Origin: Fratercula arctica
Lineage: Eukaryota > Chordata > Aves > Charadriiformes > Alcidae
Direction of reading: 5' to 3'
DNA: 64,000 nucleotides
Assembly (NCBI GenBank): GCA_947846985.1
Contig: CANTUZ010000003.1
Span: 58,848,096-58,912,095, forward strand
In this document: piece after piece, positions 1 to 55,300 of the stretch
How the letters are laid out: each line of letters begins with the position of its first letter
Numbering within the stretch: the first letter of the stretch is position 1
Made by a program: the position numbers and the translations under genes
Notes under the pieces: generated by a model
The model's database searches: none
What the model saw: only the letters and a program-made list of their open reading frames with translations
What the model was told of the DNA's origin: nothing

Positions 1-50
1 CCCTTGTGGCTTATCAGCATTGTGGAGAAGTCTACTTCACAACTGTTAAG
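1..50 (+). CDS. PLAGL1: PLAGL1 exon encoding part of a PR/SET domain (5' border outside window)
   Basis: Frame from base 3 reads [16 protein letters not shown] and is followed by a donor (AAG|gtagtt) in phase 0. The pattern A-Q-H...(I/V)YF.T is the strand just before the TEL.VWY motif in PR domains of PRDM10/PRDM15 type. After base 50 the frame stays open to base 308 but loses all similarity to the domain. The next phase-0 exon is 3595-3714. Confidence 0.75.
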
Positions 51-3000
51 GTAGTTAAACCCACATTGCTTCACCCGTCATCCAAATGGAAATTTATAGG
101 CGAAGGTTCTGAAAGCCTAACCTTTTTACAGGTGAAAGTGAGATTATATTCTGCCGACTGGATCTTTATTACATACCACCTTTTATATCACTTAATCCGT
201 AGCAAAGCAAGCAGTGTATGGAGTTTTCCAGTAAAAAGCAGTGTGTACTTGCTGTTGTGGGTAGTGAAGAAACTAAGAGAGAAACAGAAATATCATTCTC
301 ATGAATGATGTTCAGATATGGCAGCGCTTAAACATGAATGTCATAAAGTTCTTCAGTTTCAGATAGATACATGGTGAGATTATCTACCATTGTTACATTC
401 AACAGTACTTCATCCTGGAAAGAACACACACAATCCTTTCCTGTATTACATTTTTGGACACACGTATTCTGAGGACGTTACCAGGTGCTCAGGAACAGGA
501 TGCTAAGTATAACCTTTATAGACTATTTTTTGCTCTCATTAAATCTGAAGACTTAACTGCAGAACTTACAATACTGCAGTGTTGCCGTGAAATGATCAGT
601 TTATGTTAGAGATTTTGGGCTGTGTCTTCATCTGAGGAGGGAGAACAAAGTACTCCGTATTTATAAATGATACTGGAACACATACAGTCTTGGTTTTTGT
701 GGGTTTGGCCACTTTCTCAGGCAAAGCTTGTTTCAATCAGAACTTACTTTTTGGTACACTTAGGAAAGTGAAGTCTATATGTTGAACATTTTTTCTTTTT
801 TATTCTTAAGTTAATGTTTGTATGTCATCGTAAGCAACATTAAAAATAAAAAAAGAGAGAATATTAGTCAAATTATTGTGGGATTGAAATCCAGCATTTC
901 AGTTTCGTTTCCAAGATTGGCACACATTTCTGTGGGGAAGTAATGTTTACTTTTGTTCCTCTATTTTTGCTTCTCCACCTACACAGTGAGAAAAATATTT
1001 ACGGCAAAGTGATAATGTGAGAATAAGTTAATAGTGATAACATTTTACACCTTCAAACTCTTCTATAAGAGTATGAAGTGTAGTTGCTTTTGGATAAATG
1101 TTAAAATAATTTTTTAAAAATAAGAAAATCGATGTAAACCAGCATACGCTAATCTGAGACATTGTTTAGGCTGTGTTTGAGATTCTGATGCACTCTATAT
1201 CATTTGAGATTTCAATTTCATTGTAAATGCGTGCTATACTTGTAGAACTGACAGGATGAATAATAGTATATTTGGGACGCCTGAACAAATGCTCTTCTAA
1301 GAAGTTGCAGTTATGAACTGGTAGCTTACAATTTCCAGTATAATTTAAATACTATTGAACCAGCTCTCTGCTGGCTTCAGCAGAACTCTGCTTATTGGCA
1401 TTAATGGAGAGTTGCATCCTGTATACTGACATGAAGAGCATCTTAGAATGAGGAATGTGTCTTCGAACCTTTACTGTGCCGTGTATCATAGTGAATGGTT
1501 TGGGTTTTATTTCTCCTAAGTATCTCCCAGTACCATTCATGATACTGTGGTATCCTGCAGATTTTCTCCTTGTCAGTGAAAGTGATAGCCTTTTGCTACA
1601 CTTAGGCACACCCTGCTGGTAATGGCATAAGGCTGCCTTAGGGCTGATTATGAAGATATTTTCTCAAGATACTCTGAATAAAGTGTGTTAAATTGGGATT
1701 AGAAAGATTGGCTCCTCTCCCCACTGTTTTTACAAAGAGATGGGATTTTGGTGACGTGAAACTGCAGCTAACAAAAGCATACATGTAAGTGGCGCACTAA
1801 CAGCATGGTTAGCATGCTTGCTGACCTAATGACTGTAGTCCCTAGAAATAAGTGCTTTAAAAAAGTATAGAATTATGGTGAAGTAAAAGTCATCCACAGT
1901 TGCTGTCTGTCTGCTCACGGGAGAGTTTCATGTGGGGGTTGCCAGAGCTTTCTCTTATTGCCACAGGTGAGACAGAGTAAATGACAACTTGTAGTGGATT
2001 TGAATACTGGTGTTTGATCTCAGTTTTACTGAGATCAGAGCTTCTACCTTACTTGACTATTTCACACACTGATGCACTTTGCTCTCCCTCCAAAGTCACG
2101 TTGACTAGGTCTCAGCTTCCCACAGAGGAGATCGCTGCTAGTCCAGGAATGTCAGTCAGAAAGTCATGACAGTGTCGTGCTATGCAGCTGTTCGTGGGTA
2201 CCAGTCTCAGGTGTCACTGGCCAGGGCTCCGGGACATCCCCAGGCAGTTGTCGCTATGGAGCTTCCCCAGACTTGATTTTCTCCATCTAAATAGACTATA
2301 TGCAGGAGCACAATGCACAATCAGCCTCCTATTGGTGGCTCTGCTTCATGTCCTGTATTGAGTGGAGAATTCAGTACATACCATTTCTGTTAGGCCAGGT
2401 GTTACCAAAATGTACAACCAAGCCATACTGGTCGTAGTTAGCAAGCAGGCTTGTGCTTGGGAGTTCAGAAGTTAAGTTTTCAGCATTATACACACAATTA
2501 CCTGTCACCTGTCAGCATTCACAGTCTAAGTTGTCTTTCACCTACCATGCTTATCCAACACCAATGTTAAAAAAATAATTGCATTTTAAGATGTCACATT
2601 TTGTGGAATAAGACTCAGCCGCTCTCCTTCCAGGCTAATTTGTTCTCTTTAGTGGCACACGTTTAGTTTAGTTTAAATAAAGCTACAAGTACAGTGCAGA
2701 TTGGCTCTAGCCTTGTTGCAGCAAGGTAGGTTTTTATTATAGATGAAGAAAATTGTGTACAGGGCCAGGGAGTCATATAAATCATGACCCCAAAGTTAGT
2801 TTTCTCCGTTGCCTTTAAATAACTAATGGATCTTTAACCAGTGAGTGTAATCACTCTTCTCTTTTTCTATTTGCTGTATTATTGACTGAAAGTATTTGTC
2901 AGAAAAGGTCATAGTCCAGTCCAAGGAAAAAATTTGGGCAGGTGTGACTGGATGGGAGATTGCAGTTTATGGGCTCCCTTAGAACTGTGTGGGAAGGCTT

Positions 3001-6000
3001 CAGTGAAAGGAGAGCAGGGAACAATAGAGCACTTACATAGTGAGCCTGACACATTAGAGCCAGTGCGTCAAAACATGCAAGTTTGACTTGTAGTCCACAT
3101 ATTGATCAACTCTGCACCCATGCTCTGCGAGTGCAACACACCCAGGAGGCACCCAACCTGTTGTGCATTCGTGATGCATTTTTCCTTTGCCTGTACCCTA
3201 TAGTTAAGTGTTGCGTTCATTGGGCTTTGAAACATCGAGGAATAGGCATGGGATATTTTGGAAAGACTGCTGGATGTCTGGATATCACAGGCAGATAGAT
3301 CTCCCTGAGCAAAGGTCATGAGGGCTGAGGCACCCCCTCGTGCTACTGTCCCGCAGAATTCTTTGTGCATATGCATTTCTGCTTTCAGAAACTGTGAAGG
3401 TGTCAAACCTTAGTGGATAGAAACGCTCAAAAAGTGCTTGAATTGTGAAACTGTGTTACCAGTAATTTAAACAGATTCAAAGAATACGACTTGGGTAAGG
3501 AGACAAATAGCACACACACCCCCCTCTGATCTTCAGTATTTGTTATAGGGAGAACTGGCGCAAGTAAACATGTGCTATTTTCTTCCATTCACAGCCAATT
3601 GAACCTCACACAGAATTGAAAGTATGGTATGCTGCCGATTATGCCAAATTTATGGAAGCTTCTGCAGTCTTTATTAAAGAAGAATCTGACATCTGTCCTT
3701 TGCCTCCAGTAGCAGTAAGTACCCCTAATCTGCATTCAAGACATCACCTGACATAATAAATTACAATGCACATGCTTTCTCTGTTTATGTAACTCTAGTA
3801 ATGCTAGAGTAGACCATATAGTAGCAGGCTAACACAAAGCCAAGAGCAATTTTAACCAAACAGCTACTCAGAGAAAGGCTGCTCTTCCTCTCCTGTGTTT
3901 TTAGTCCAACAGAGCCGTTAGATATAGCCAGAAGTAACTGGCACCAGTGAGACGTGTTGAAAAGACTTAAGATTGGCATTAATTTGTAGATAAACAAGCT
4001 GTCCAGCCTCAGACTTCTTTCACTAGTTCCTCTTTGTTAGGCTCTGATTGGTTGGTCAGGTAATGCACTGATTATTTCAGTTTTTCCTGTGCAATAACCC
4101 TTTAATACCAATATCTTCCCCTCTGTATGATAGCACGAATCCTTAAACTGATAGGAAAAGTTCATAAGTGTTGAAAACATGATACCTATGTTAGAAGGAA
4201 AAGTTAAACAGGGAATATGATAGAACTGGGAATTCAGAGGTGCTCCAGGAAGGGAAGTAACCCCATTGTTGCATTTGCATATAAGGGCTTTAGAGCATAC
4301 CCCAGAAAGAATGGGTGGGAGGGCCACAGCATCAGGCATAGACAAGGTAGAGGAGGGCTCTGCCTGTAAATAAAGACAGAGTGGACATAGCCTCACCACG
4401 TTCTCCAGAGCAAGCTAGCCCAAGAGCAAGGGAAAGTAAGGACAGTTTAAGAGACAGCTAAGGAAGTACATGATTGTGTATTAATTGGAAGTACGTTTCA
4501 TCAGTGATTAGGGTTTTTTTGTAATTGTTTTTCATCGGCATTTTAAAAATGTAAATATTTAAAGTGAATAACTAAATCCAGTAGAGCTCTTGTTTCCGCA
4601 GAAATAGTACTTCCAAATAATGCATTGCTTGCTAAAAAACTTTTATGTTTTAATGCCTCTAAATCAGGATAGGCTTGAGATCCCCAAACCTAAGGTGTTT
4701 CTTATCTAGTTTAAGAAAGTCTAATGCCAAATGTCAAGCTAAGTGAGGAAGTCTCTCCTGGAGGCATTGACTGTTACCAGCATTCTGGTAAAGCAAGGAA
4801 ATCCTGTTCGACTAAACTACATTTGTGTGCAGAAACCCACACAATTTTTGTATGCTTGTATGCAGTAGGAAGTAAATTATGTCAGTCTAAGGATATTTGC
4901 AACAATTTGCAACTGCTTTTATGATTAATTCCATAAAAGGAACAAATGTAGAGACTTTGAAATTCAGTAAGCACAGATAAATAAAGGTGAAGGATTCAGG
5001 ACTGTTACTGTAAATGCTAAACAAAAGCATGGAAAGCTATTTAGCCAACCATTATTTTTTCCGTCTAGTTTGTAGGCTCCCAGAGAGAATCCATTTCCAG
5101 CCGAGTAGCTGTATGGTAGGTAATACACTGAAGTAAATATCGCTAAGGACACTGACAGGTCTTAGGAAAGCCCAGGAGAAGATTTAGGGTCAGTTAGAAG
5201 AATATGACCTTTCCTTAGAATGGCTAATAAAAAAGACCTGTTTCTGTTCTCATTGCAGAAAGAGCCCGTAGACCCTTGGATATGTTCCAGCTGTAGAAGC
5301 ACTTTTGCAACTTTTGCTCTGCTAGAATCTCACCAGTGCATCCACAAAGACCGAGTCCTTACCACCAGGTTCAGACCACCAAACAAATTGGGACCTGTAA
5401 AGGCAAAAAGCAAACTCAAAGGGAAACTGAGAGGAGCGACATTAGGCAAAAGCATTGCCCAGTGCTACGGGACCATTTCCTGTTCCTCTGCTGCAAAGCT
5501 AAGCTGTGCCAGCTCAGGAAGCACTTGTGATGCTCTTGTGAGGTTCATACCTAAATGGAGAAATGGCCGGTCTTCGCTGTTGAAGGGAAAAGAAGTGAAG
5601 CAGACAGACGGTTACCCTTGCCGACTCTGTGGGAAGATATTTGATTCAATTGACAAGCTCACAATCCACACTTACGCGCACAAAGGGGAGCGCCCCTACA
5701 AGTGTTCACAGCACGGATGCACAAAAGCCTTCATTTCCAAATATAAACTGCTCAGGTACAGTTCTGAAGGCACTCCTTTTCTGGTGGGTGTGTGGGGAAA
5801 AAAACAAGGACATCTTTTTCCTCTTGAGTGTCCTAGTGACAGTTAATCCCCAAGTTCCAGTTTTTATTATTCCTGTTTTGGTAGAATTGGAGAAAACTAA
5901 TCTCCCTCAATTGCAGTGGCTACTGAAAAAGATTATGGTGAGCAGTTTGAACTACTGTATGCTTTATGATTAACACCTTCCCCCCAAAAAAGTCAGGCTT

Positions 6001-7412
6001 TTACTAATAATCTGAGAATTTGTGAAAGTGCCTTCCTTCAAAAGTGCCAGAGTTTTCAAGTCTTGAAGCTGCACTGGGTACTAGAGTAGAGTAAATGTAA
6101 ATGCAAATAACTTCTTTCTTTTTTTTGTTGTTTTAGGCACTCAGCCACTCATTCTCCACAGAAATCTCACCAGTGTGGCTACTGTGAAAAAACATTTCAC
6201 AGGAAAGACCATCTGAAGAATCACCTTCAGACTCATGACCCTAACAAGATGGCCTTCAAGTGTGAAGAGTGTGGAAAGAAGTACAACACCAAGCTAGGCT
6301 ATAAGAGACACTTGGCTCTTCACGCAGCCACCAGTGGGGACCTTACCTGTAGGGTATGTGCCCAGGAGTTTGGCGGTACGGAAGTTTTGTTGGAACACCT
6401 CAAAAGCCACGCAGGGAAACCAACTGGTAATACCAAGGAGAAGAAACATAAGTGTGACCACTGTGAGCGTCACTTTTATACCCGTAAAGATGTGCGGCGT
6501 CACATGGTAGTTCACACAGGCTGCAAAGACTTTCTATGCCAGTTTTGTGCCCAGAGGTTTGGGCGGAAGGACCACTTGACTCGCCATACTAGGAAGACTC
6601 ATCCACAAGAACTGCTGAAGAGCAGGTTGCAGAATGGTGACTCAGTGGGTCTCCTGGACCAGCTTTTTCCATTCAGACTGAAGGAAGATGCTGGCGTACT
6701 GTCCCCTTTTCCTGAAAGGGTCTCTGTGCAGAATGGGATTTTGAATAGTTCAGAGTCAGAGGAATACAACTGTTCACATCTTCATTCCCAGCCAAGCTTA
6801 CAAACTGCTCTTCCCCTTGAGTCTCCTCCTCATTTGCAAAGGATGGGCTGTGCAGACAGCCTTCCAGCTGTCCATCCCACACCATGCTCAACAGCCATTC
6901 CTGCCAACCTGAACCTTCATCAGCCTAATAAATATGACCTTAGTTCTACCTCATTTGCAGCGGGATCCCTCAAGAGTCTACCGATAAAAGTGGATGTTAA
7001 AGGTTACAATGTGCATCTTCTTGAGGACCTGCCATTACCAGAACCTCAGTCTCTCCACAAAATCAGTCTGGAAGAAGCTTCCTCAGGGCCTGTAGGGGAT
7101 ACTAACAAGTATCCAGTGCACAAGGAGACAGAGGCAGCAGCTGAAACTCCGAGCCTGCCTTTCATGGACCTCACTCATGTGATGAGTTTCTGGCAGCTCC
7201 CACCGGGTGACAACCAGAACACTACTGGAGACATCACAATGGCATTTGGTACAGAGGAACCATCACACAGGCTGAATGGCTTTGGTCAACAGCAAGGTCT
7301 TCAGCTAGCAACTGGTGGGATGGCCATAAACCAGCTGCATCATCTTCCTCGCTCCTTTCCATCCACTACAAATTCTGTAACATTGCCTCATTTTCACCAT
7401 GCCTTCAAATAA
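1..7412 (+). CDS. PLAGL1: PLAGL1 (ZAC1), 3' coding exons, with a PR/SET-like N-terminal part; 5' end outside window
   Basis: Zinc finger transcription factor of the PLAG family, expected to act in the nucleus. Coding exons seen: <1-50, 3595-3714, 5259-5755 and 6137-7412 (stop TAA 7410-7412). All have AG/GT borders and matching phases (0, 0, 2). Exon <1-50 reads [16 protein letters not shown] and exon 3595-3714 reads on with [15 protein letters not shown], a pattern of the end of PR/SET domains. Exon 5259-5755 holds a CX2CX12HX3H finger (start WICSSC), a basic linker, then PLAG finger 1 ([10 protein letters not shown]) and most of finger 2. The last exon holds the rest of finger 2, fingers 3-7 and the C-terminal tail. 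Identity as PLAGL1 rests on [45 protein letters not shown] and the end LPHFHHAF, and on the neighbours ZC2HC1B and LTV1. Mammalian PLAGL1 is known as a seven-finger protein starting just before finger 1. The extra N-terminal part seen here is unusual for that family. Confidence 0.9.
3595..3714 (+). CDS. PLAGL1: PLAGL1 exon encoding the end of the PR/SET domain
   Basis: 120 bases, phase 0 at both ends, with acceptor ttcacag| and donor |gtaagt. It encodes 40 residues. [20 protein letters not shown] matches the C-terminal PR/SET signature (TEL.VWY...YA). It is followed by an acidic linker with a KEE-type sumoylation-like motif (FIKEES). The exon is too short to start an ORF of its own. Confidence 0.8.
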
Positions 7413-34130: not shown

Positions 34131-34519
34131 AGGCTGCCAGTCCGCATAGGTTATGTTTGGTTTTTTTTTTTTTTCTTTAACGCCAGTAACAAAAGCAACG
34201 AGAGTTTTCTCAGATTTAAATAGTCTTTTAATAAAAGACAGGCTCCGTGATCGCAAGCAGGGTACTTCCTCCCACCTTCCGGAGGCATATTTTCCCCACT
34301 TTTCCCCCCAAAAAACTAGTGGAGAATGGTTCCGCCCGAAGCGGCAGAACGCTGGGCAGCGGGGGCCAAAGGGCAATGCGCGTGCGCAGGGGCCGGGCGG
34401 TTGCTACGATAAAATACCGTAAACTTTTACAAAGGGGCGTTGCGAGACGGGAGGTGCGGTGGCGCTCAGTCGCCTGCAGGCCCGGCAGAAAGGGCTTTCT
34501 CAACCAGCCGTGCCGTAGC

Positions 34520-35283
34520 CAGCTTCAATAGGGCCGAGTGCCGGGTCTTGCACCAGGGTCACAACACCCCCCTGCAGCGCTACAGGCCTGGGGAAGAGTG
34601 GCTGGAGAGCTGCCTGGCTGAAAAGGACCTGGGGGTGTCGGTCAACAGCCGGCTGAATATGAGCCAGCAGTGTGCTCAGGTGGCCAAGAAGGCCAACAGC
34701 ATCCTGGCCTGTATCAGGAACAGTGTGGCCAGCAGGACTAGGGAAGTGATGGTCCCCCTGTACTTGGCACTGGTGAGGCCTCACCTTGAATAATGTGTCC
34801 AGTTTTGGGCCCCTCACTACAAGAAAGACATTGAGGTGCTGGAGTGGGCCTAGAGAAGGGCAACGAAGCTGGTGAGGGGTCTGGAGAACAAGTCTTACGA
34901 GGAGCGGCTGAGGGAACTGTGTTTGCTCAGCCTGGAGAAAAGGAGACTGAGGGGAGACCTTATCGCTCTACAGTTACCTGAAGGGAGGTTGTAGCGAGGT
35001 GGGGTTCGGTCTCCCAAGTAACAGGACAAAAGGAAATGGCGTCCAGTTGCACCAGGGGAGGTTTAGACTAGATATTAGGACAAAATTTCTTCACCAAAAT
35101 AGTTGTCAAGCATTGGGACAGGCTGCCCAGGGAAGCGTTTGAGTCGACATCCCTGGAGGTATTTAAAAGACGTGTAGATGTAGTGCTGAGCGATGTGGTT
35201 TAGTGGTAACCTGGCAGTGCTAAGTTAACGGTTGGACTCGATCTTAAAAGTCTCTTCCAACCAAAATGGTTGTGTGATTCTAG
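34520..35283 (+). mobile_element. CR1 LINE fragment (end of reverse transcriptase ORF plus 3' UTR)
   Basis: The plus strand encodes the end of the CR1 ORF2 ([48 protein letters not shown]) with a stop after HLE. It then runs into the CR1 3' UTR and ends at about 35283 with TGGTTGTGTGATTCT. It is 5'-truncated and inactive. It lies about 550 bases upstream of the LTV1 start codon. Confidence 0.9.
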
Positions 35284-41868: not shown

Positions 41869-44211
41869 TCAACCCCATGCTATCAGGGGGACCGGTCCTT
41901 CCCAGCGCCCCGATTCAAGGTGCTTATAATACACCTTTGGTTTTTCAGGCCATTCAACAGTCCTTCCAAAATGTGTCTCTACTGCTGTGGATGACAAAGA
42001 AGACATGTTCAGAAAATTTAAAACATAAGTTGCTTTATACAATCGCTCTTGAGGTGTCATACCTATGGGATTCCCCCTTTTTTGTTTAGCAAGCATGGTT
42101 TTGTTTAGCAAAGTATGATGCATATGTTCCACAATTGCTTGCCCAGTCAGGGAATGAGGAATACTGGTGACATGTTTAATACCCCATGTCTGTAAAAAGG
42201 CCTGTATTTTAGCAGACACATAAACTGGTCCGTTATCAGTTTTAATAGGTTTCAGTACTCCTGTGACTGCAGTGCATTGCAACCAATGTCGAATAACATC
42301 ACAAGCTTTCTCTCCTGTATGAGCAGTAGCTACAACAAAGTGAGGAAACAAATCAACTGAAACATGTACATAGTGCAAATGTCCAAATTCCATAATGTGC
42401 GTAACATTGGATTGCCAAAGTTCCTCAGGTGTAAGCCCTCGCGGGTTAACCCCCACAAATGATGGCAGAGGAGCCAACTGCTGACAACTGGCACAAGTTC
42501 GCACAATATCATGTGCCTGTTGTTGTGTTAAAGAAAATTGCTTCCTCAGTGCCTTCGCATTTTGATGAAAAAAATCATGCGACATTTTAGCTTGCTGCAT
42601 AATGTCCGGAGTTGTTACCGACAGAGTGTGATAATCTGCAACTGCGTTTCCCTCAGTTAAAGGACCAGGTCTTGAAGTTGGATGGTTGGTGTGTCGGGGA
42701 CAATTCCGTTTGATATGTCCTTCCTTATCACAAAGGAAGCATTTAACAGCTGCATGGGCTACCACCATCTGTTGAGCTAAAGCAGTAGCTAACATTCCTG
42801 CTTTACATTGCTCAGAGCCCACGTTTTGACAGGCTCTTATTAGCTCTGACAGAGTTTTGGCCTTATTTCGCAAAGGCTCTAAAGTGCGCTTGCAATCCAC
42901 ATTCACATTTTCAGTTGCTAATTGAAACGGCAACAGTTGCTGCGCCTCTTCGGAATCTATTTGCCTTTGGATAGCAGTCTGCAATCTGTCTAAGACAGTA
43001 ACAGGTGCCCCCTGGTGCACAGCCGCAAAAGATGTTTCTCTTCTTCCTGTGTCAGGAACTCGCCGCAAGGCTCTAATAGCCAGCGTGGTGGCCTGACCAA
43101 GAACTCTTCCGTCTAACTGGGCTTGTGCCTGCGCAGTGGCATATGGCCCTTGTCCCAGCAACTCGTTCAGACCTATATTAATACCTTGAGTAAGATTGTC
43201 CATAATTTGAGCAGTGCCAGCATCACGATACTCTGTGTCCCAGACTGCAAATTGTGCTGCAGTCAAGATTAACTGCAAAAGAGAACGCCAATCATACGCT
43301 GTCATTGTATACGAGTCAGCTATGGCATGAATAAGATTCATTGTAAAGGAAGATTGCAATCCGTAATCTCTGGCAGAATTTCTTAACTCTTTAACTAACT
43401 CATAAGGTAAGTGCTGATACTGAGGAGTTTGGTTTATAGATGCCTGTCTATAAATTACAGGCATTACTTGTAACATCCGAATGTCTCCCCTGTGCAAAGC
43501 CTTCCGCCGACATTCTGACAATATGCCGCAATACCCCGATTCCGGCTGCACACGTATAAGCGGTTGATAAGAAGGAACAGACGCGGTACCTGGTGCAAAT
43601 GGAGGAGGGTTAAGAATGGAGAAGCACGATAATGACTTTTGTCGCTGTTGCTGTAAAATCTCCTCCGCAGTTGGAGCAGATGCAGGCATAGCTTTAATTG
43701 GGGTTAAAGGTGGATATAAATCAGGTTCAGTCTCTGGATTTATTGGACCAGGATCAAAGGGATCTTCTGGCTCTTCGCCTCCCGAATTCTGCTTTTGGTA
43801 ATGTTCTGCAGGATTGGGAATTTCAGCAGATTCAGGGTCCACAACTGGGGGTATTACGTCAACAGACTGAGGTTCCTCCGGCGGAGCTTGTGGTGCCCCT
43901 CCAGTAACCCCTTGCAGGGCTTGCTCTGCGGGATGCAGTGTTCGTATGGCAGTGTATACAGTTCACCAAGTAATTATTATTCCTTCTGGCAAGGACAAGC
44001 GCAGTGTCTCCCGCATTTGCAATTCCTCCCCCACTTTTCGCCAGTGAGCTAAATCATAGGACCCCCCTTCAGGGAAACATGAGCAATGATCACGTATCCA
44101 TACAAGCAAAGTTACTAATTTAACAGAGGCCACTTTAAAGCCCTGTTCTGTTAAAATGCGCTGCAGAAGTTCGAGTTGCAATTTCTGTTCTCAAGCAGCT
44201 GTTTGTCCCAT
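41869..44211 (-). pseudogene. Retroviral gag fused in frame to integrase; two stops in the matrix region
   Basis: A single frame runs from a gag-type ATG (44211-44209) to the stop at 41869. It carries TGA at codon 7 and again at 43965-43963; after that it is open for about 657 codons. Content in order: a matrix-like part (about 44190-43966), a proline-rich linker, a capsid part with a QGPYATAQAQA-like segment and a major-homology-like region, and one zinc knuckle (CX2CX4HX4C, from CFLCDKEGHI). Near 42670 it passes straight into the RNase H/integrase border. The integrase has an HX3H..CX2C zinc module and a core with Asp, Asp (TDNGP) and Glu (IVEH) in DX35E spacing. Protease and reverse transcriptase are missing, so the frame reflects an internal deletion that kept phase. 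The long open stretch has no ATG at its start, so expression is uncertain. Confidence 0.85.
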
Positions 44212-49398: not shown

Positions 49399-52300
49399 TT
49401 ATGGACGATGAAACCTGAAATGATAAAACATTAAAAAACTTAGAATTATACTATTTCAACTGACAATGACACCAATCTTCATCCTGCTCTCACAGCTATT
49501 TACTTTTGTTGCCTGAAGAGAATTATTCCTGATTTTCCTGGTCTAAGTGGGATTAGAGTCAGCTCTATTATCCCCCGCTGTCTGTCTGTCTCTACTAGAA
49601 AACCAAACGGGTCTGTGGTGTGGCTTAGGCACTGGCGTATGTCTGTCTGTCCATATCATTAACCTGTTAACTGTGGTCCCTGGCACAGTTTTGCTTGGGT
49701 CAACCAGTGCTCTCCCAGATACTGCCTGGCCATGGCTGGGATTAGCACAGGCCAATAGGCAAACTGTGTATGGGGGGGACGTCACCCTGTTTTGGGGTTG
49801 GGGGAAGAGGTTAACTGTATGAATTCAAGCTGTGCCAAGCCTTCTGGCCTCAGGGCTGGAGAAAAGTCTCCACTCTGTTTTGTATATTAATATAGATTTA
49901 GCCACATTGCATTTACTATTTGGAGACACTGTAGATAAGTCAGAAAAGCTTTGCTAAGCCACAAAATTCAACATTCTGGTTTTTTAATCCTTCCACAAAA
50001 TGAGGCTAACAAAAATTTTTGATTTTTTTAAAGTAAGCAACAAATTTTATAGCCCTGCTGGTGCTTTCTTCCTACTAACAGCAGCCAACTGTGGCACATG
50101 AAGGCCCAAATACACCTCATTTTTTTCTTAGACTTTTAGGTAGGGCATATACATCACTCCAGATTGCCTGTATGATGGATAGAGAGGTGGGTTGCTCCAA
50201 AAGGTGTTGCCAACTTTTTTCTAGAATAAGTTAGGAGCCTACAGCAATTGAAATTCTAAATTAGCTTAAATATAGTGAATCCAAGCAAAAGGGTATAGAC
50301 GGGCACCAATATCAGGTGTTCAACGTCTCTATCACCAGACTTCTAAATCTTTGTTTAAATGGCTTTAAAAATGTATCTATCCATGAAGTAGTAAAAGATG
50401 CAACAACTTTAAAAAAGCATAGGTAACGATGCACCTAACAGAGTACATTTACATAGGTTTTTGTTTGACGCATCTTCTCTTAACAGTTCCAGAGAAGAGA
50501 AAAGAAAACAAGCCACACATTACCCCTATAATGTGGTTCACTACAATACAGGGATGCATTTCTCAAATAAAGGAGGTGTACACAAAAGCTGACATTCACA
50601 AGTACACAGCTCATCTGCTAAGTGAGGGTACAGTGCATTGCAAAACATACACAGGGTTTTTGTATTTGTGTAGAACAACAATATCTTGGACTATGTCTAG
50701 CATTTCCATTAGAAGCACTTTATAAACTTCTACTAATGTCCTCTTCCCAAACTCTTATTTATTTCTCTGTTTTTAGAAACTCAGTTTCTTGGATTCTGTT
50801 ATGAAATAACAGAAGGAATCAGTCTAAGTTCCTAGGAGCAGAGAAACAGTTCAACTGACAGTCATTACAGTAAATGATGAACGATGAAAACCAGTGTTTT
50901 TCCTTTCCCAATTTTAATATAAAATTTTAACAATTCAAAGATATTTTAAATATTCATTATAATCTTGAAGTGTCTTATATTGAATAGCTAATAATATAAG
51001 AAACCATATGCTATAAGCTATTGTTGTTTAATAAGCAGCTTCCTTGTTGTCTCATTCTATCACAGAACTTCATGAATCAGTCTTTGTTAACCAGCTGCCA
51101 ATGCAAGCGCCTTTTGGTTTGTATTACCTCAGTGAATATCCTTGAAAAAAATTAAAAGGTAATTCATTATCTGGCCAGAAACTTTTGCCTGTCTTTTTCT
51201 TAAAACAAATCACTTTTGTTGTATCAATCCAAATGTAGTGGTGAACTACATAATTTTTAATGAGAGGTCCCAGAGGAAACTGAATCTCTTTTTATTTTCA
51301 AAATTGCAATTGACTTAAAACATCTGCATCTAATTCTGTTCTTAATTAGCTTTTTCTACAGTTACTCTGCTGACTTCTGTGCAGTGACTCCACATGACCA
51401 GTGAAAAAAACAGGGTGGAGAAGGAACAGAGAAAGCCTGATTTCCCTCAGGTTGAAATTCTTTCAGGACCATGTATTTATCACAATTTGTCTGTGCCTAT
51501 TTTTGAATCCATTTTCCAAGGTCCTCCTCAGAAAAAAAATTCACTTTTTAACTGGTTTGTCATTCCATTGGGTCCCTGAGATTTTTGGTTCATCTTTCAA
51601 GACAGGTTCATCTTGAAAGGCAGGTCCTGCCTGACGAACCTGATCTCCTTCTATGACAAGATGACCCTATTATTGGACGAGGGAAAGGCTGTGGATATTA
51701 TCTACCTAGACTTTCGAAATGCATTTGACACTGTTCCCCATAGAATTCTCATGGAAAAACTGGCTGCTCATGGCCTGGATGAGCATACGATCTGCTGGAT
51801 CAAGCACTGGCTGGCTGGATGGTCCCAAAGAGTGGTGGTCAATGGAGTTAAATCTAGCTGGCGGCCAGTCACAAGTGGTGTTCCTCAGGGCTCGGTCTTG
51901 GGACCATTTGTGTTTAACATCTTTATTGATGATCTTGATAAGGATATAGGGTGTATCATCAGTAAGTTTGCAGATGACACCAAGTTGGGCAGGAGTGTTG
52001 ATCTGCATGAGGACAGGGAGGCTCTACAGAGAGACTTGGATAGATTGGATCGATGGGCCAACGCTAATGGAATGAGCTTCAACAGGGACAAGTGCCAGGT
52101 CCTGCACTTGGGCCACAACAACCCCATGCATCGCTACAGGCTTGGGGAAGTGTGGCTGGAGAGCTGCCTGGCAGAAAAGGACCTGGGGGTTCTAATTGAC
52201 AAGGGGCTGAACATGAGCCAGCAGTGTGCCCAGGTGGCCGAGGTGGCCAATGGCATCCTGGCTTGTATTGGAAATAGTGTGACCAGCAGAAGCAGGGAGG

Positions 52301-55300
52301 TGATTGTCCCCCTGTACTCAGCACTGGTGAGGCCACACCTTGAGTACTGTGTCCAGTTTTGGGCACCTCAATACGAGAGAGATATCGAGGTGCTGGAGCG
52401 AGCGCAGAGGAGGGCAACGAAGCTGGTGAAGGGCCTGCAGAGGAGTGATTGAATGAGCTGGGACTGTTTAGTTTGAGGAAGAGGGGGCTGAGGGGAGACC
52501 TCATGACTCTCTACAACTACTTGAAAGGACATTGTAGAGAGGTTGGTGCTGGTCTCTTCTCGTAGGTAATTAGCGATAGAACAAGAGGGAATGGCTTCAA
52601 GCTGCAACAGGGTAGGTTTAGACTGGACATTAGGAAAAAATTCTTCACAGAAAGAGTGGTCAGACACTGGAATAAGCTGCCCAGTGAGGTGGTGGAGTCA
52701 CCATCCCTGAATGTGTTTAAGAGTCGTTTAGATGTGGTGTTAGGGGATATGGTGTAGGGGAGAACTTTGTAGAGTGGGGTTGATGGTTGGACTCGATGAT
52801 CCCAAGGATCTTTTCCAACCTAAATGATTCTATGATTCTCTGATTCTATGATTCAAGAATCCAATTGTAATCAGTCTCAACTGCTTTCAATTCTCATGAA
52901 AAATAAGCAATTCTTTTTGTACGACTCATGCCTATCTGTCCTTATGTTTCTATATTGCAGTGCAACTCAAAAAACGTAAAAACATAAGCAGGGGGTCACA
53001 CTCCATCTTTCTCAGCACGCAGCCAGGTTTCTAATCCTGCTGATTTTCCTTCTCTCCCTTGGGATGCCCATTTTTTTAAAGCAGTATTTTTATGTATTCT
53101 GAAGAAGGTATACTACCTACTGCCTAAAGAGAAAATGACATCAGAAGCCAAATGAAAATATACAAATCCATGTTTGAAAAGGACCCTACCTCCTGGTTCA
53201 TCTCCTTGTTTAGTTTTGCTGTCTGTGAAACTAGTTTGTTTTTTTTTAAATTAATTTATTCATGTCATACATGACAATATGAACTACACTGAAGTGGGTT
53301 TATAGTATTACAGAAAAATCCATGTTTTGGTGAAAAAAATCACTGAAGTTGTGAAATCAAGCACTGAACTAGGAGATGCCAGAAATCACCAAAAGCCCAT
53401 GTCCCATTGTGAATTTTCCTTGTGACAGTCTCTTTAATTAAAAGAGTCACACTCACCTGTGCAGATCCTAAGTTTGATTGAAACAGTAGCAGGAAAAGGA
53501 AGGGACACAGTCGTAGCCATTTATTTTTATTTGACTTAACTCCGTGTGGAAGTGAAGGCAATAATACTATGTATGCAATGTTGGCTGATCCTAACAGCAA
53601 GTTCTGCTTAGCCTTTATAACTTCAAAAGACACAGATGCCATGGGGATGGCAAAAAGTGCCTCCCTCCTCCTTAGGAATAAATTTGAAGTCTTGCTAAAA
53701 ACTGTGGACACTTCAGAGCTCTTTAAATCGTAATGCTTCAGACAACATCTTGGTGTTATCCAGGACAGAGAATGAAACAAATCCAGATTAAAACATCAGA
53801 AGTAGCAAACAAGGAATATTACAATCTGTCTTTTTCCCCTTAAACTGTTGTCAGGAGCCTAGAAAGCTCCCCAAAACACTGATAAGCTTTTCTGAAGTTC
53901 AACACATCATCTAGTTTTCACTTACCAAATGCATCTACAAAAATGGATACTTTCATTAGCAAGGGAGTACTGCCAGAGAAGGACATCCCTTTTTTGTGCT
54001 TGAGGACTGTTAAGTTATACCTGGGAGAGATGCTGAGTCCTTTCAAAGGATTATTTTTTTAGATTTCCCAAAGAATGTTTTTCCCTTTAGCAACTGATCC
54101 ACTGCAGTCACTTTCACTGCTGTATCAACTACTCAGCTTCAGGGATGGCATCAGCAACACTGGGAATCCCAACACTAGTTCTGGGTTTCAAAGGGACTCA
54201 CAGTAGGAATCTACACAAGGAGCCAGTCGTGACACAGCTGCAGAGGACTTGCAGAGAGGCAGAGGGTTAGGGTCACACTCATCTTTCCGACTTATGCAAG
54301 AAGAGGGATTCACCTACCTGGTAAATTGCCGACTTTCCTCATGTACTTCCATTTCTGTGCTTTTAAATTCATTCAGTTCTTTCCGTATTGCCGCCTAATA
54401 AACAATAATGACATATGCAACCATAAGAAATAGGAATCTTAAGGAAAGCAAAGAGTCTGAAAGGAATCTGTCCCTACTCTTGCAAGTTCCCTTGCAGTTC
54501 CCATTTTCCAGTCTCCCTTAGCGTAATCCACAGCTCTCACACATTTCTGATCATCAACATGACTGAGTTTTTTCAATTACAGTGATTTGGAGCAGTAATA
54601 CACTATGAAGAAACTCTAAGTGTCAAACACCAACAATAAACAACGAAACACCAGATCTGCTGCAGTGAGCAAAGCAACCCCCTCACTGAAATATGGCACT
54701 TGCTACGGAAAAAAATGGGTAAGAGACTGGGTTATCTCGACAGTCACCTGCTGAGTATGCAACCGCGAGGGGATAACATCTGCGGGGGCAGCCCCTGGGG
54801 AGCTGGTGAGTCACGCTGCCTGCACAGGCACTGTACACGCAGCAGGGGCCCCGCATCTCCCCACTGGAGGCAGGACTTCAGGAATGCAAGATGAATAGCA
54901 GCTTTTAATTGGGATTAGTCACTTGGTTTGATTAGTTTTATGTAAATTTACATGAAACATTTGGACATTCCAGGCTTGCGTTTTCAGCTGGCAGATACTA
55001 AAGAACAGCAGAAATTCAGTGCACTTTGTAAATGTCTTGCTGCTTATGTTAGAAGAGCGATAAGCAATTTACTTCATCAAGTAATAAATATAATTTCTGA
55101 AATATTCTAATATATATACCACAAGGGGCTTTTGTTTCTATCCCATATGCTTTCCTGTGAAATGAAACGACAGTTTGTTCTTACTCACTCTTTTCTTTCA
55201 CCATTTTAAAAAAAGCAGTATCATTTCATTACTCCCTAAAGAAATCTCATCTGGTGTGCATGCCATTCAATGCAGAACAGACAAGCAGCTTGATAAAATT

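Follow-up and report, generated by a model that had tools for sequence, protein, structure and literature searches.

Does the PLAGL1 gene of birds encode a PR domain ahead of its zinc fingers? The question is raised by a 64-kb stretch of bird DNA from Fratercula arctica (the window; positions are counted from its first base), which contains the 3' part of PLAGL1. PLAG1 and PLAGL1 have been studied in humans as oncogene, tumour suppressor and growth gene subject to imprinting, in each case as finger proteins. PLAGL1 is described as a seven-finger protein in PMC8069715, and a duck study calls it a zinc finger transcription factor (PMC9746021). The mammalian description, seven fingers and no PR domain, does not fit the gene in the window; its wording is based on mammals and does not define orthology. 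The evidence presented below supports a gene structure and an ancestry according to which bird PLAGL1 is very probably a PR-domain zinc-finger protein that retains the architecture ancestral to the PLAG family, the PR domain having been lost from PLAG1, PLAGL2 and mammalian PLAGL1.

Four coding exons, all on the forward strand, make up the gene in the window. The first, cut by the window edge so that only its 3' end is present, covers positions 3..50 and ends in a phase-0 GT donor (AAG|gtagtt). It was located by tblastn with the ostrich and Alligator gene models P0011 and P0003 (P-numbers are model labels), and its 16 residues, 1-16 of the joined protein, are 100% identical to those of the Lonchura and ostrich models. 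The second, 3595..3714 (120 bp, 40 codons, phase 0/0, cacag|CCA ... GCA|gtaagt), encodes the last part of the PR domain, which extends to about position 3660, followed by 18 post-PR residues. Exon 5259..5755 (497 bp, ttgcag|AAA ... CTCAG|gtacag) encodes a linker finger, a spacer and fingers 1-2, and hands two codon bases to the last exon, 6137..7412 (starting at ttttag|GC and closed by TAA), which runs from finger 3 through a C-terminal region ending LPHFHHAFK to the stop. Every internal boundary has consensus AG/GT ends and matching phases, and each exon has one frame open over its full length, except for 3-50, whose 48 bases are open in two. Exon coordinates and phases given in a preliminary description of this DNA proved correct on re-reading the sequence, with open frame and splice ends in agreement. 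The four exons join into 646 residues and a stop, so that, at the level of exons and of gene models from relatives, C2H2 fingers follow the PR domain in one protein. The whole protein would begin with an N-terminal zinc knuckle and the PR domain (mostly outside the window and seen in relatives), followed by the linker finger, spacer, seven PLAG fingers and C-terminal region. The linker finger (WICSSC...ESHQC, 5277..5339, forward strand) is the counterpart of the finger that follows the PR domain in PRDM10; its W, C, C, F, L and H columns are invariant in two alignments that take in PRDM10.

That exons 3-50 and 3595-3714 encode the end of a PR domain, as had been proposed from the sequence, is confirmed by their profile and structure-database matches. 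Together (56 residues) they score 49.9 bits against Pfam PF21549 (PRDM2_PR; E 3.2e-13, cut-off 27), or 44.5 bits inside the joined protein; judged by sequence, this match exceeds chance. The match ends at residue 38, only the last 38 residues of the domain (PF21549 positions 85-122 of 123) lying within the window. The Pfam SET profile, by comparison, gives this piece only 13.2 bits against a cut-off of 22.4. The ostrich model P0011, which has the earlier part, contains a PR domain at residues 53-168 with 129.4 bits for PF21549 and 32.5 bits for SET. The SET cut-off is likewise passed by the full PR domains of Alligator, shark, amphioxus, hemichordate and one mussel model. Among proteins of known structure the best match of the window piece is PRDM10 (chain 3ihx, E 4.9e-10); the turtle PR region also finds 3ihx first (E 1.1e-26), then PRDM4, PRDM11, PRDM1 and PRDM9. 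The domain is thus homologous to those of the PRDM family by its PF21549 and PRDM10 matches, and it lies among PRDM PR domains in the tree described below. Databases already contain PLAGL1 models with a PR domain annotated as PF21549.

What such a protein might do can be outlined tentatively. PLAG-family fingers bind GC-rich DNA, and those of the bird protein would be expected to do the same. One possibility is that the PR domain is enzymatically active, methylating lysines and thereby marking chromatin at PLAG sites: its full form passes the SET cut-off in the relatives named above, and PRDM9, named as a methyltransferase, is among its PDB matches. We consider this possible and rather doubtful, since the sea-star model P0026 stays under the SET cut-off (16.9 vs 22.4), and PRDM10 and PRDM4 are marked, together with PRDM15, as without methyltransferase activity in the table of a review (PMC4009873). 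Because PRDM10 and PRDM4 are its nearest relatives, we infer instead that the domain might act as a docking module for co-regulators.

A different objection is that the join itself is an annotation artefact, the PR exons being remnants or part of a separate transcript, and that functional bird PLAGL1 starts further down. It has in its favour that the join is known from gene models and that their 5' ends differ. Several observations make it very unlikely. No in-frame ATG is found across exon 5259-5755, so that the mammal-type start is absent; printed therian PLAGL1 models start MATF/YPCQLC at finger 1, that of Otolemur shortly before it. The first in-frame ATG of the coding sequence in the window is at 3652..3654 (forward strand), inside the last PR exon, and corresponds by eye to the start methionine of the Pleurodeles model P0128; the next is at 6249, past finger 3. 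The gene must therefore start in or before the PR exons, barring an unseen 5' exon or a start at finger 4. The PR exons are moreover open and, when the window is compared with three shark models, no less conserved than the fingers: identities are 94% for exon 3-50 and 85-90% for exon 3595-3714 (36 residues together), 57-67% for the linker finger, 74-77% for the PLAG fingers and 28-33% for the C-terminal region, and the spacer, at 17-23%, is not conserved. Against amphioxus, the PR pieces are 44% (16 residues, first exon) and 90% (next 20) identical, the fingers 76%. Over the part compared, the end of the PR domain is, by these alignments, held about as tightly as the fingers. Finally, the same join recurs in models from separate phyla.

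A search with the N-terminal part of the joined protein (residues 1-172) returned 18 proteins from 338 candidates, from birds (Lonchura, Porphyrio, Struthio), Alligator, turtles and sharks, with the same join of PR domain to PLAG fingers (PR-PLAG) in models of all four groups; the shark proteins carry the names PLAG1-like or PLAGL1-like, and two bird clusters comprised 400 and 609 sequences. A shark N-terminal query gave 574 proteins from 975 candidates. The 120 of them listed also include amphioxus, hemichordate, crinoids, sea stars and sea urchin, then bivalves, followed mostly by fish PRDM10 and the PRDM10 of the annelid Platynereis. Several of these listed matches are named PLAG1-like, others PRDM10, PRDM4-like, PRDM10-like or uncharacterized. 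Related models with PR domain and PLAG fingers occur in lamprey, amphioxus, hemichordate, echinoderms and bivalves. The preliminary description had placed a PR-containing PLAGL1 "in this lineage"; it is present here, and the models carry it well beyond that limit, to sharks, lamprey and the invertebrates just named. Printed deuterostome PR-PLAG proteins end LPRFHQAFQ or close variants; amphioxus P0020, named PRDM10, has this same end and most of its fingers are absent.

A query with fingers and C-terminal region yielded 636 proteins from 6301 candidates. The counts that follow refer to the 120 listed of these 636, all of which were scored with the turtle PR region, sorted by name and then checked by BLAST against reference sets. 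A PR domain is present in 18: 10 of the 11 bird, crocodilian and turtle rows, 6 of 7 shark rows of PR-PLAG type, amphioxus and, in part, lamprey. The bird-like row without it, P0125, is an unnamed model beginning just before the last exon. None of the 35 mammalian rows, all nearest to tetrapod PLAGL1, has a PR domain, and neither has any of the remaining 62 (38 nearest PLAG1, 21 PLAGL2, and three unnamed, mammal-like ones nearest PLAGL1); for PLAG1- or PLAGL2-like rows the count is 0 of 59. P0004 and P0019, two of the 18 N-terminal matches, are not among the 120, nor is any row named squamate or frog PLAGL1, and we claim no loss in those groups.

Some sequences deserve mention in their own right. 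The salamander models P0128 and P0132 keep the linker-finger region in the absence of a PR domain; in Pleurodeles P0128 the finger is short of one cysteine (CPSR) and the protein starts within the counterpart of exon 3595-3714, so that P0128 could represent either a gene caught partway through decay or a model cut short. By eye, the short basic stretch that PLAG1 (P0161, P0177, P0182) keeps immediately ahead of its first finger (of the type KPRKNFPC) is similar to the last part of the PR-PLAG spacer (P0014, P0021, P0224), as if a start codon had arisen within the old spacer. In the bivalve models P0031, P0032, P0034, P0042 and P0102, again by eye, roughly 150 to 400 inserted residues separate QFGP from NWMMF, splitting the PR domain.

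How the PR domain came to be joined to PLAG fingers was addressed with trees. In a tree of 40 finger regions, the window, with its seven PLAG-type fingers, groups with the PLAGL1 sequences of birds, crocodilians and turtles; the 14 rows of tetrapod PLAGL1 cluster together (94/90), and five shark rows join them at 90/90. The ostrich row, with fingers 1-2 absent, sits on a long branch. Mapped on this tree, presence of the PR domain requires at least five changes, the shark model P0154 counted. A tree of 26 PR domains, rooted on the long-branched PRDM11 and PRDM1, with PRDM4 also outside and PRDM15 and others not included, groups the 17 PR-PLAG rows (84/81) and six PRDM10 rows (97/93) as sisters (87/91). 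Reptiles and sharks unite at 99/97, and branching within PR-PLAG follows animal order: bivalves, ambulacrarians, then amphioxus with gnathostomes (97/91). The PRDM10 pieces in this tree carried extra N-terminal sequence; a second tree, of 25 PR-only rows with PRDM11 left out, recovered the same groups, PR-PLAG at 80/84.

These trees bear on two other origins. The PR exons might come from a PRDM10-type neighbour, or from a recent fusion to PLAGL1 in reptiles or early gnathostomes; after all, no solved PR domain is closer than that of PRDM10, and the turtle model P0004 is named PRDM10-like. Trees constrained to join the reptile or the gnathostome PR domain with vertebrate PRDM10 were rejected by the approximately unbiased test (p-AU 0.00105 and 0.00079, respectively), and with the same join in amphioxus, hemichordate and echinoderm models such an origin is extremely improbable. 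The preliminary description had left a choice between loss in mammals and gain in the bird lineage: the evidence supports loss, and a gain through fusion with vertebrate PRDM10 falls with the rejected constraint. It is also conceivable that PR-PLAG arose by two separate fusions, in bivalves and in deuterostomes, given that bivalve PR domains are split by a long insert and that joining them with PRDM10 was not rejected (p-AU 0.098). We think this improbable: the best trees hold all 17 PR-PLAG rows together, and knuckle and linker finger can be recognized by eye in the printed bivalve proteins, except for P0102, which begins after the knuckle. A single origin of the domain is thus well supported across deuterostomes and likely, though not proven, across Bilateria.

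Since PR-PLAG forms one group in the trees, with moderate support, and the joining of reptile or gnathostome PR with vertebrate PRDM10 is rejected, the PR domain is best regarded as ancestral and later lost. The ancestral PR-PLAG arrangement, with PRDM10 as sister of its PR domain, survives in the PLAGL1 of birds, crocodilians and turtles and in its shark ortholog. The proposal that PLAGL1 encodes a PRDM-like protein is borne out by profile scores, by bird, Alligator and turtle models with the same join, and by the trees. More broadly, it is probable that the PLAG family (PLAG1, PLAGL1, PLAGL2) is a PRDM branch sister to PRDM10, with PR-PLAG already in the bilaterian ancestor, the human proteins being fixed in the PR-minus state and birds, crocodilians, turtles and sharks still PR-plus.

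Several points weigh against this account. The relatives are gene models, not reads, and some may have been guided by each other. The window holds only the end of the PR domain, whose earlier exons would be expected to the left, and the piece in the first exon is the one just 44% identical to amphioxus. Two structure models of turtle P0004 are both poor (predicted local distance difference test, pLDDT, 47.9 and 53.1). Monophyly of all PR-PLAG has moderate support in both PR trees, and the constraint that joins bivalve PR with PRDM10 survived. In the finger tree the root part (PLAG1, PLAGL2, lamprey, amphioxus) lacks resolution, and PLAGL2 does not form one group. Among the rows listed, the shark model P0154 (Carcharodon) is without a PR domain despite being of PR-PLAG type, and none of the three salamander rows has one; because P0128 begins partway through the counterpart of exon 3595-3714, the salamander absence may reflect either loss or missed exons.

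Variation among models hints at how the domain might be used. The counterpart of exon 3595-3714 is absent from models P0007 (bird), P0012 (turtle) and P0224 (lamprey, 5' incomplete), in which YFTTVK or its counterpart runs straight into post-PR sequence, the product expected if the exon is skipped. Skipping leaves the frame intact and costs the PR domain its VWY end, so we infer that this phase-0 exon could act as a switch, yielding in-frame, PR-defective forms as in other PRDM genes. The Lonchura model X2 (P0002) is without the knuckle exon. Ostrich model X4 (P0011) splices from within exon 5259-5755 to the last exon, dropping fingers 1-2; comparison with P0011 by eye finds the corresponding AG|GT at 5368..5369 (forward strand), a site that this bird may also use.

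PRDM10 shares with PR-PLAG an N-terminal zinc knuckle, a PR domain and a single finger directly after it. In the rows listed in the shark-query search, its PR domain has about 42-47% identity with the shark PR-PLAG region; PRDM10 differs in its finger array and C-terminal region and forms a separate, well-supported group. Mammalian PLAGL1 (ZAC1/LOT1) has orthologous fingers and the LPHFHHAF end, whereas therian models are printed without PR domain, linker finger and spacer. Models without exon 3595-3714 suggest a likeness to PRDM1, PRDM2, PRDM3 and PRDM16, single genes for which PR-plus and PR-minus forms are described in PMC4009873. Unlike these, mammalian PLAGL1 appears fixed in the PR-less state.

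Judged by title and abstract opening, none of the papers listed in text searches deals with a PLAGL1 PR domain or with PLAG descent from PRDM; invertebrate PR-PLAG genes may already appear, differently named, in the survey of Vervoort et al. 2016 (doi 10.1093/molbev/msv260). By term search, words beginning PLAG do not occur in the PRDM papers PMC10451705, PMC2082429 and PMC4009873 or the C2H2 survey PMC2889900, nor does "PR domain" in the PLAGL1 imprinting paper PMC8069715.

The PLAG proteins of humans appear to be what is left of a PRDM-type gene after loss of its front half. If they do descend from such a gene, their function would have to be interpreted as that of PR-minus forms, analogous to RIZ2 and EVI1; the PRDM genes would gain one subfamily, and chicken would offer a system for testing the PR-plus state.

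Elsewhere in the window, a search for the gene neighbours SF3B5 and STX11, with one probe each, found no match at E 1e-3 within the 64 kb. A 697-codon frame on the reverse strand (41869-43962), in which gag-like sequence and a CCHC knuckle are joined, by eye, to integrase-like sequence, looks like an internally deleted endogenous retrovirus. CR1-type long interspersed nuclear elements (LINEs) are usual in birds. A 290-codon frame on the forward strand (51580-52452) resembles, by eye, the reverse transcriptase of this type, and a shorter frame at 34413-34793 is similar to it.

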